A stretch of DNA of 64,000 nt from assembly GCA_001769125.1 (NCBI GenBank), contig MEOG01000090.1, positions 1-64,000 on the forward strand, read 5' to 3'. The notes beneath the pieces are model-generated. The model saw only the letters and a program-made list of their open reading frames with translations. It did not search any database and was not told the origin of the DNA. Position numbers and translations under genes: made by a program. This DNA comes from Bacteroidetes bacterium GWF2_35_48. GTDB lineage: Bacteria > Bacteroidota > Bacteroidia > Bacteroidales > GWF2-35-48. Positions 32,727 through 49,357 of this stretch are shown here, piece after piece (the stretch's first letter is position 1; each line of letters begins with the position of its first letter).

Positions 32727-32785
32727 GCCATTATTTTGGCATTAAAATTAACAATGCTTATGGAATTAACAAAATTATTATACTT

Positions 32786-32968
32786 AGTGTTTGCAAGAAA
32801 ACGTCAATCATCCGCACTAGCTGGCTCAAACACTCACAGGGTGTTTGCCCTGTTACTCTCGACCTGAAAAACAGTCATGTACATTAGTACACTCCTGATT
32901 TTCAGGTCTTCAAAAGCCCTGCCTACCGGACAGGCAGGCTTGAACTTGACGTTTTCTTATCAAGCACT
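32786..32968. repeat. Covarying structured repeat element, copy A (183 bp)
   Basis: Non-coding element bounded by the inverted termini AGTGTTTG (32786-32793) and CAAGCACT (32961-32968). An extended outer stem includes AAGAAAACGTCAA (32795-32807) with TTGACGTTTTCTT (32946-32958). Inside are helix 1 (CAAACAC 32827-32833 with GTGTTTG 32841-32847), a linker CCCTGTTACTCTC, helix 2 (GACCTGAAAA 32861-32870 with TTTTCAGGTC 32899-32908) and helix 3 (TGTAC 32878-32882 with GTACA 32887-32891). An extra hairpin CCTGCCT...AGGCAGG is present at 32918-32938. Copy B at 49173-49352 keeps every helix with compensatory changes. It could be a structured RNA, or a DNA hairpin element of the MITE type. Confidence 0.8.
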
Positions 32969-32992
32969 GACACTGTCAAACAAAAAACATGA

Positions 32993-33010
32993 GTTTTCTT
33001 GCTGACACTA
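32993..33010. repeat. Second inverted terminus of the copy A element
   Basis: GTTTTCTTGCTGACACTA is the near-exact inverse (16 of 18) of the left end of copy A at 32785-32802. The full element may therefore run 32785-33010. A collapsed copy of the two termini lies at 36633-36654. Confidence 0.6.
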
Positions 33011-33085
33011 CTTCGACTGATACAATATAAAACAATATATGAAATTTTTCCCACTTAAAACGTGCTAATACACAATTCATGGTAT

Positions 33086-36010: not shown

Positions 36011-36631
36011 ATGCAAGATATATTTGAAGGAGGGAACAAGCTTCCGGTAATAGAAGAATTTTACTCTTTGCAGGGTGAAGGATATAATACAGGCAAAGCG
36101 GCATATTTTATTCGTGTTGGTGGATGTGATATTTGCTGTTCGTGGTGTGATTCAAAAATATCATGGTCTCCGGATTTGCATTCTCTTACCTGCATAAAAG
36201 ATATCATAAATAATATTGCGACTACACCGGCTAAAGCTGTTGTTGTTACCGGCGGAGAGCCTCTCAGTTACAATCTTGACCCTTTGTGTTCCGGCTTGAA
36301 AGAAAAAAATATTCAGACATTTCTTGAAACATCAGGCGCTTATCCTTTATCAGGGGTTTGGGACTGGGTTTGCCTTTCTCCGAAAAAACATACTCCTCCC
36401 CTGCCATCTGTCTACAATATTGCTCATGAATTAAAGGTGGTTATTTTTGAAGACGATGATTTTAATTGGGCTGAAGAAGCATCGAAAAAAGTTAATTCAA
36501 AATGCAAATTATTTCTACAACCTGAGTGGAGTCGCTACAAACAAAATATTGCAAAAATAGTTGAATACATTAAGGCAAATCCAAAGTGGTGTATTTCGCT
36601 GCAGGCGCATAAATTTATGAGGATTCCGTAG
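36011..36631 (+). CDS. queE: 7-carboxy-7-deazaguanine synthase QueE (radical SAM)
   Basis: 206 residues. QueE converts 6-carboxy-tetrahydropterin to 7-carboxy-7-deazaguanine in queuosine synthesis. The substrate/fold signature EEFYSLQGEGYNTGKAAYFIR precedes the iron-sulfur motif Cys39-x3-Cys43-x2-Cys46 (GGCDICCSWCDSK). The SAM-contact motif GGEPLSYN lies at about residues 81-88, and CLSPKKHTPPLP matches the family C-terminal half. The length is typical. The other queuosine genes (queC, queD, queF) are not in this window, so it stands alone. Confidence 0.93.
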   Translation: MQDIFEGGNKLPVIEEFYSLQGEGYNTGKAAYFIRVGGCDICCSWCDSKISWSPDLHSLTCIKDIINNIATTPAKAVVVTGGEPLSYNLDPLCSGLKEKNIQTFLETSGAYPLSGVWDWVCLSPKKHTPPLPSVYNIAHELKVVIFEDDDFNWAEEASKKVNSKCKLFLQPEWSRYKQNIAKIVEYIKANPKWCISLQAHKFMRIP

Positions 36632-36632
36632 A

Positions 36633-36654
36633 TAGTGTTTTCTTGCTGACACTA
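36633..36654. repeat. Collapsed copy of the covarying element's termini
   Basis: TAGTGTTTTCTTGC joined to TGACACTA: this is the left terminus (TAGTGTTT) fused to the right terminus seen at 32993-33010, with no core between. A further TAGTGTTTTAG follows at 36657. Confidence 0.55.
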
Positions 36655-48712: not shown

Positions 48713-49174
48713 ATGAGGAAGATATTATTATTGCTGTTTTGCTCCATTCCAATTTTATCTTTTGCGCAGAACAAAAAAAATCCGGCAGATAATATAGTTG
48801 GGCTATGGCTATCGAGTGAAAAAAATGGTGTGATTGAAATTTATAAAAGAGGAGCTAAATTTTACGGAAAACTTGCATGGATAAAAGATTCTCTTGATAA
48901 AAAAACAAAACTACGGGTAAAAGACAAAGAAAACCCTGATCCTAAACTGCGGGATAGAAAAATTTGCGGGCTTGAAATATTAACTTCATTTTATTATGTA
49001 GGAGAGAATAATTACAAAGAAGGGAATATTTATGATCCCGAAAGCGGAAAAACCTACAGTTGTAAAATGAAACTTGCCAACGATGGGAAAACACTTGACC
49101 TAAGGGGATATTTGGGTGTTTCGCTGCTTGGCAGAACCGAGGTATGGACCCGCATTGAAAAATTACCAAAATAG
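48713..49174 (+). CDS. Exported DUF2147 protein
   Basis: 153 residues with signal peptide (about 1-18, ILLLLFCSIPILSFAQ). The mature part follows the DUF2147 lipocalin-like pattern: IVGLWLSSEKNGVIEIYKRG, FYGKLAWIKDS, then LRDRKICGLEIL, and the closing LRGYLGVSLLGRTEVWTRI. Family members are periplasmic or secreted single-domain proteins without an established reaction. The stop codon overlaps the first bases of structured repeat copy B. It has its own promoter, so it is probably monocistronic. Confidence 0.88.
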   Translation: MRKILLLLFCSIPILSFAQNKKNPADNIVGLWLSSEKNGVIEIYKRGAKFYGKLAWIKDSLDKKTKLRVKDKENPDPKLRDRKICGLEILTSFYYVGENNYKEGNIYDPESGKTYSCKMKLANDGKTLDLRGYLGVSLLGRTEVWTRIEKLPK

Positions 49175-49352
49175 TGTTTGTCCATAATGTCCGAGCATTG
49201 CACCAGCTGGCTCAAACAACCACCGGTTGTTTGCCCTGTTACTCTCGAATTGAAAACAGTCATTTACCAAAGTAAAATCCTTGGTTTTCAATTCTTCGAA
49301 AGTCTTGCTCTCGAACATTCTGAATCAAACACAGACTTTATAAACAAACACT
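49173..49352. repeat. Covarying structured repeat element, copy B (180 bp)
   Basis: Non-coding element with perfect 8-bp inverted termini AGTGTTTG (49173-49180) and CAAACACT (49345-49352). Helix 1 is CAAACAACC (49213-49221) with GGTTGTTTG (49225-49233); helix 2 GAATTGAAAA (49247-49256) with TTTTCAATTC (49285-49294); helix 3 TTTAC (49263-49267) with GTAAA (49272-49276). The linker CCCTGTTACTCTC and the preceding AGCTGGCTCAAACA are identical to copy A at 32786-32968. It begins within the stop codon of one gene and ends 5 bp before the ATG of the next. Confidence 0.8.
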
Positions 49353-49357
49353 AAATA

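Follow-up and report, generated by a model that had tools for sequence, protein, structure and literature searches.

Repeats of the ERIC kind (enterobacterial repetitive intergenic consensus) have been in use for typing bacteria since the 1990s, and their target duplication is TA. Like the element described here, ERIC, also called IRU or RU-1, is a short multicopy palindromic element, 127 bp in length according to PMC2229807, and a review gives its host range as Enterobacteriaceae and Vibrionaceae (PMC10969869). In Yersinia, transcripts upstream of ERIC are reported to be less stable through an exposed RNase E site, an effect that depends on orientation (PMC2229807). Another related system is RUP of Streptococcus pneumoniae, a non-autonomous transposable element (MITE) that is paired by its ends with the insertion sequence IS630-Spn1 and named in the 2007 text as the exception among the bacterial repeats it treats (PMC2229807). 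RUP resembles our case in this pairing, whereas its transposase family and its TA target differ, and the parts of that text concerned with RUP mention no ERIC hairpin. Other bacterial MITEs have been paired with insertion sequences in later papers (PMC10969869, PMC4596501).

We analysed a stretch of 64,000 nucleotides (the window) from Bacteroidetes bacterium GWF2_35_48, whose genome comprises 5.98 Mb in 142 contigs. An earlier note on the window had described a non-coding element in two copies, A and B, which share core strings at offsets of 33 and 32 bp from the left end and in which three helices stay paired although their bases change. The core strings are present at these offsets, and the changes between the two copies can be read directly: A-T takes the place of a C-G pair in helix 1, GAATTG/CAATTC that of GACCTG/CAGGTC in helix 2, and TTTAC/GTAAA that of TGTAC/GTACA in helix 3. 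The extent proposed for copy B was right, whereas copy A had been ended at 32968 instead of 33009, because the reading went only as far as the inner repeat R1 and overlooked the outer one, R2. Both copies are real, but they are not a pair on their own: they belong to a large family with 55 two-ended copies in the genome. The parts of both copies are collected in Table 1.

Table 1 Positions of the parts of copies A and B, and of a related remnant, in the window.
Feature	Position	Strand	Description and basis
Copy A, left target-site duplication	32782..32785	.	ACTT, identical to 33010-33013
Copy A, complete element	32786..33009	+	224 bp, A-type ends, long form; from ends and duplication
Copy A, left terminal inverted repeat L	32786..32802	+	AGTGTTTGCAAGAAAAC; 0 mismatches to the A-type end pattern
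Copy A, extra hairpin of the long form	32819..32858	+	AGCTGGCTCAAACA...TGTTTGCCCTGTTACTC; read from the letters
Copy A, inner stem with ERIC-type hairpin	32861..32908	+	GACCTGAAAA / TTTTCAGGTC around CAG-TCA-TGTAC-ATTA-GTACA-CTC-CTG; from model R1 match and covariation
Copy A, nested small GC-rich palindrome, 3' side of core	32917..32939	+	CCCTGCCTACCGGACAGGCAGGC; read from the letters
Copy A, inner repeat R1	32946..32968	+	partner of L, with one extra base; closes the ERIC-like fold and is paired when the plus strand is folded
Copy A, right terminal inverted repeat R2	32993..33009	-	GTTTTCTTGCTGACACT; adjoins the right duplication
Copy A, right target-site duplication	33010..33013	.	ACTT, matches the left one
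A-type remnant	36634..36653	.	20 bp, AGTG + TTTTCTTGCTGACACT between two AGAT repeats; from letters and end-pattern search
Copy B, left target-site duplication	49169..49172	.	AAAT, identical to 49353..49356
Copy B, complete element	49173..49352	+	180 bp, B-type ends, long form; from ends and duplication
Copy B, left terminal inverted repeat	49173..49187	+	AGTGTTTGTCCATAA; 0 mismatches
Copy B, right terminal inverted repeat	49338..49352	-	TTATAAACAAACACT; 2 mismatches to the B-type end
Copy B, right target-site duplication	49353..49356	.	AAAT, matches the left one

By mechanical reading frames, copy A lies between two divergent frames and copy B between two frames of the same direction, and neither copy contains an open frame of at least 80 aa. 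The TAG stop of the frame upstream of copy B consists of the T of the left AAAT and the AG of the element; when copy B and one AAAT were removed in silico, the junction became a TAATG stop-start and the end of the upstream protein was unchanged. The A-type remnant lies at the end of a reading frame that stops at 36631. The extra hairpin of the long form, one arm of which (AGCTGGCTCAAACA) has 15 exact copies in the genome, is absent from the 144-bp copies among those listed, and the GC-rich palindrome CCCTGCCTACCGGACAGGCAGGC occurs in some copies in the genome and is missing from others.

Throughout the genome, where the element is dispersed, 72 stretches were aligned; 17 had no recognisable ends and were dropped, and both ends could be delimited in 55. 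These copies are 114-252 bp long (most often 144 bp, 15 of 55), and the element ends read AGTG...CACT. Both ends were of A-type in 31 copies and of B-type in 23, and one copy was mixed. Searches with the end patterns, allowing up to 2 mismatches, gave 110 places in the genome for the B-type (0 for the reversed-pattern control) and 176 for the A-type (4 for the control). Identical 4-bp flanks were found at 45 of the 55 copies, 44 of them ANNT, while permuting the right flanks among copies gave 9.3 matches on average and at most 20 in 10,000 trials; the other 10 copies had no matching duplication. The ANNT flanking repeats are target-site duplications. When the flanks (up to 500 bases per side) were joined, a frame of at least 150 codons ran across the junction at only 2 of the 55 sites, which indicates mostly intergenic placement as judged by open frames. 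The orientation of the copies relative to neighbouring frames was mixed, with no clear rule. No pair of empty and filled sites with both flanks conserved was found, including in one genome of the same genus (G001). There, no element follows the ortholog of the gene upstream of copy B, and the stop is also TAG; as evidence for an empty site this is weak, because synteny is lost on the downstream side.

Copies A and B thus have terminal inverted repeats and target-site duplications, and are short, multicopy and without a transposase gene. Together with an insertion sequence of matching ends in the same genome (see below), these features bear out the hairpin-based mobile element, which the earlier note had listed as one option. 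As far as sequence comparison can tell, copies A and B are very probably MITEs of the ERIC kind. We hold this a shade less firmly than we otherwise would, because the co-occurrence with the candidate transposase is weak and the partner for A-type copies was not found in this genome.

The predicted fold was compared with 200 dinucleotide shuffles for both strands of copy A and for the minus strand of copy B, and it was better than all of them (z = -8.2 for A plus, -8.0 for A minus and -6.6 for B minus). For covariation, at least 110 public loci carrying the core pattern yielded 100 complete windows and 57 non-redundant elements, from which 39 were aligned (alignment A1); the other 18 were excluded on visual inspection because they had insertions, truncated arms or an outer part laid out differently. 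Six loci titled neither Bacteroidota nor Chlorobiota (L115, L119, L120, L123, L158, L186) were kept out of A1, and one row (L125) is titled Chlorobiota. The elements came from other records, among which a record near the window's own genome may be included. All were chosen by the exact core pattern, so the invariance of the core in A1 arises by construction. RNAalifold on A1 alone returned only the outer helices; we placed the inner stem manually, following a single row (L169).

The resulting structure of 39 pairs was paired in 83.2% of cells in the 39 elements; shuffles reached 63.7% and slid versions no more than 44.1%. Its covariation score was 0.448, compared with 0.136 (sd 0.009) for shuffles and 0.151 or less for slides. 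By helix, 84.5 and 91.3% of cells were paired in the outer helices, 69.2% in the inner stem and 61.5% in helix 3; the two helices of the core were paired in 85.8 and 99.5%, values largely fixed by the choice of sequences. When 7274 column pairs were ranked by corrected mutual information, the 39 structure pairs supplied 8 of the first 10 and 19 of the first 30, and ranks 30-60 contained no further one. Stem halves from the 57 elements paired far better with their own partners than with those of other, dissimilar elements (-9.77 versus -4.33 kcal/mol for the inner stem, -17.18 versus -7.48 kcal/mol for the outer), ahead of random partners by about 18 and 19 standard deviations, respectively. 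The slide, swap and mutual-information controls weigh more than the percentage paired, because the hand-added inner stem favours the latter. Outside the patterned hairpin, CGTT was kept in 37-38 and CCT in 38-39 of the 39 rows, and the central hairpin, which has internal loops and almost invariant letters, reads CAG-TCA-TKTAC-NNNN-GTAMA-CTC-CTG, flanked 5' by CGTT and 3' by CCTTG/CCTCG.

These controls strongly support a predicted interior in the form of a long, imperfect hairpin, with helices that compensatory changes maintain in many different genomes. A mutation process could in principle give a similar picture: template switching during replication perfects imperfect palindromes and changes a whole stem per event. 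Whole-stem replacements between copies of one genome are what it would produce, and so is the far better fit of each stem half to its own partner. However, template switching should also erase loops and bulges, whereas the different genomes retain the TCA/CTC loop as well as the CGTT and CCT strands (the hairpin itself having been chosen by pattern), and the same loops and strands recur in E. coli ERIC and in elements that were not chosen by pattern. We therefore regard template switching as an improbable source of the compensatory changes, and selection on the fold as the better reading.

A covariance model built from the 39 elements of A1 (model R1), which come from other records and include no gammaproteobacteria, had only two matches in the window up to E 10. 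These are the cores of copy A (32843-32926, 64.7 bits, E 1.7e-13) and copy B (49228-49314, 59.6 bits, E 3.3e-12), the E-values of this model and of model R2 below being rough. In 50 kb of E. coli, again up to E 10, model R1 also gave two matches only, at 30.4 and 28.7 bits, both to ERIC repeats; much of the model score is due to the short fixed hairpin, worth 27-30 bits by itself (L115, L119). The first E. coli repeat aligned over the full R1, and the second over positions 24-101 only. Model R2, realigned with members of other groups (45 rows, of which two are from the gammaproteobacterium Legionella and none from enterobacteria), found the same two repeats in 100 kb of E. coli at 38.7 and 38.0 bits (E 2.1e-7 and 3.3e-7). 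Its next-best match there scored 12.9 bits (E 1.9), and blastn found no other full ERIC copy in that 100 kb. The ERIC consensus, covered to at least 80%, had a place in 5375 of 5426 E. coli genomes.

Judged by letters and predicted fold, the core of the element is the core of the ERIC repeats of E. coli. Both have the hairpin CAGTCA-YTTAC-NNNN-GTAAR-CTCCTG with CTGCGTT on one side, GCCTT on the other and a long closing helix, so that the central hairpin and the fixed strands beside it stand in the ERIC order, and both are placed between genes. The apparent kinship rests on this interior; the ends differ. ERIC ends in TATACTC...GAGTATA and targets TA, whereas the Bacteroidota element ends in AGTG...CACT with 4-bp ANNT duplications. 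Unlike ERIC, it also possesses the additional outer repeat R2 and further nested hairpins, its B-type ends are matched by those of an insertion sequence, and its host range is another one, the hosts being mostly Bacteroidota among the loci listed. The element may thus be described as an ERIC-type mobile hairpin beyond the reviewed host range of ERIC, with a candidate transposase. The earlier note had not recognised a known family, which agrees with Rfam but not with the known repeats. Release 15 of Rfam gave 0 matches in the window and none for copy A up to E 5, and a search for tRNA and tmRNA found none. Among the best matches in the open-access literature, we found neither ERIC-type elements in Bacteroidota nor an ISNCY partner of ERIC, a weak negative.

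Full-length matches of model R1 were also obtained in Legionella anisa, Bacillus sp. FJAT-22090 and a Thermoanaerobacterales MAG, the best at 43-61 bits, and weaker ones at 32-33 bits in a Lentisphaerae MAG; the loci of these four groups had first been found by the core pattern. In the Bacillus genome, one element (L267) sits between tRNA genes. An Alteromonadaceae contig (L115) was not counted as a member, as only the short hairpin was matched, at 27 bits. With stricter filters at E 1e-4, model R1 matched 16 of 198 genomes and 3 of 103 genera. The 15 positive genomes other than that of the window all belong to one family outside the class, presumably of Chlorobiota, and their elements were not chosen by pattern; no other genome of the window's class in this sample had a match at that threshold, so the distribution is patchy. 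By eye, 16 stretches from 7 of those 15 genomes have in common, apart from minor differences, CTGCGTT or a close form, a hairpin resembling TCATGTAC/GTACACTCC and a strand resembling CCTTG.

Since the terminal repeats differ between the members in Bacteroidota, E. coli, Legionella and other groups, the likeness to ERIC might be a convergence of unrelated MITEs under one constraint, such as recognition of the hairpin by a protein or nuclease. We consider this rather unlikely: the members share letters not only in the hairpin but also in strands apart from it, and the order of these is the same; moreover, the models match little else in 100 kb of E. coli. The same core on different ends outside enteric bacteria provides a comparative set of 57 divergent elements for the role of the conserved hairpin.

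The same genome contains an insertion sequence of 1.64 kb (L216) with B-type ends, AATT-AGTGTCTGTCCATAA...TTATGGACAGACACT-AATT. Its transposase of 443 aa (P0001) matches the NCBIfam model ISNCY_1 at 332 bits (cut-off 325) and Pfam DDE_Tnp_1. By blastn, the ends of copy B match those of L216 over 19 and 15 bases (E 2e-4 for the right end, about 0.03 for the left), whereas no end of copy A matches below E 0.5. Otherwise, copies A and B share with L216 one interior stretch of 19 bases (E 0.034) and weaker short matches only, and model R1 found nothing in four ISNCY elements up to E 10. The possibility that the copies are fragments of an insertion sequence end, raised earlier, was rejected: copy B does have its ends in common with the insertion sequence, but the folded interior is not part of it.

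In the assembly, the protein search with P0001 found a single intact insertion sequence. At two contig edges, however, a left end resembles that of L216 over 78 and 89 bases. A B-type end is also present at nine other edges, whose adjoining sequences resemble each other; one of these edges was compared with the right end of the insertion sequence. Two further edges (L239, L237) have A-type ends with no MITE interior. These contig-edge ends (L217-L227, L237, L239) probably represent collapsed long copies, and such repeats seem to break the assembly.

The P0001 search gave matches in 8 of 60 genomes, that of the window included. Because it yielded only these and the one intact copy here, a wider search with the family NF033593 was run, which had matches in 9 of 149 genomes at E 1e-40, the window's genome again included. 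Of these nine loci, four (L291, L292, L293, L298) have clear ends with an identical duplication and a fifth (L290) has clear ends at a contig edge; no paired ends were found at the remaining four (L294-L297), L297 having two single A-like ends far apart. Among the copies in relatives, inverted repeats with the same duplication on both sides are seen in G047 (ATAT-AGTGTCTGAAAGAAAAC), G038 (ATTT-AGTGTCTCTAAGAAAAC) and G054 (AAAT-AGGGTCTGCTGATTTTC), and in the first two the ends are A-like (loci L291 and L292). ISNCY ends therefore appear to come in forms like both MITE end types. These insertion sequences (NCBIfam NF033593) have AGTGTCTGTCCATAA or AGTGTCTGAAAGAAAAC ends and a 4-bp ANNT duplication in common with the MITE, and differ from it in their length of 1.6-1.9 kb and their DDE transposase gene. 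Within this genome, no A-type ends were found around a transposase gene.

Across relatives, the co-occurrence of element and ISNCY gene is weak, which speaks against a tight partnership. A DNA search found the element in 11 of 60 genomes, including the window's; a P0001-like match (E 1e-10) was present in 3 of the 10 other relatives with the element and in 4 of the 49 without it (one-sided Fisher p 0.09). The end-rich relatives G046 (291 end matches) and G052 (106) had no such match at E 1e-10.

We propose that the two outer repeats, L and R2, would be recognised by ISNCY transposases, which would mobilise the element in trans. The A-type copies would then require an ISNCY relative with A-type ends, as seen only in other genomes. 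The inner repeat R1 repeats the left end with a one-base difference; it would close the ERIC-like fold, and R1 and R2 may be competitors for pairing with L. Once co-transcribed with neighbouring genes, R1 and the core could serve the element or the host at the RNA level, a role that we propose by analogy, because ERIC in Yersinia is reviewed as altering mRNA stability. A transcript would be expected across copy B, and in transcripts of this kind mRNA processing may be influenced by the hairpin. With an ERIC-type family that shares its ends with a transposase-bearing element of the same genome, the movement of such repeats becomes directly testable.

The smallest copy seen is a 38-bp stretch (L240, G000:C27:31632-31669) that is reduced to a pair of inverted A-type ends with AAAT on either side, which suggests that insertion may need no core. 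We entertain, tentatively and at somewhat less than even chances, a wider reading in which the ERIC hairpin is an old mobile nucleic-acid fold that has crossed phyla and changed its transposon ends, using ISNCY-type ends in Bacteroidota and different ones elsewhere, as in E. coli and Legionella. Because the ends-only stretch also has a target duplication, the core would in this reading be a module, either selfish or of use to the host, on which selection acts as RNA or as a single strand, and the alternation of L-R1 pairing (closed ERIC fold) and L-R2 pairing (transposition ends) would act as a switch.

The same stretch bears on a different reading, in which a trans-acting structured RNA, or riboregulator, is carried by the mobile element and kept for its RNA function: if the core is dispensable for insertion, its upkeep wants another reason. 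The strong covariation agrees with such an RNA, and in the minus-strand loop GAG/UGA could, by reading, form tandem G.A pairs. In addition, an E. coli ERIC (L287:286-409, minus strand) matches RF02818, V_AS5 or Vibrio RNA AS5, an antisense RNA, over its full length at 48 bits, below the gathering score of 96; unlike ERIC, copy A has no match to it up to E 5. Rfam may thus hold an ERIC-type element under an antisense RNA name. Nevertheless, the many copies per genome stand at differing places with no single host locus, the letters of the stems vary freely, and a mobile element directly explains copy number, ends and duplications, so that a riboregulator seems doubtful to us and the MITE remains the preferred reading.

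A REP or REPIN-type element moved by a RAYT (Y1 HUH transposase) is highly unlikely: although the element is palindromic and the genome has 10 Y1_Tnp matches (L017-L026), an element end lies near only one of them (L020, within a flank of at most 1.5 kb), and target duplications with inverted ends point to a DDE transposase.

Some copies of the MITE family are arranged in unusual ways. The mixed copy (L087) has a B-type left end, an A-type right end and no target duplication, which suggests recombination between two copies, from which a hybrid of this kind would be expected. One locus (L166) has cores in tandem at 121-144 and 252-275, 131 bp apart, and another (L188) has two cores close together. 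At a further locus (L183, 865-1312), a row of ends is found, all with an ATTT flank.
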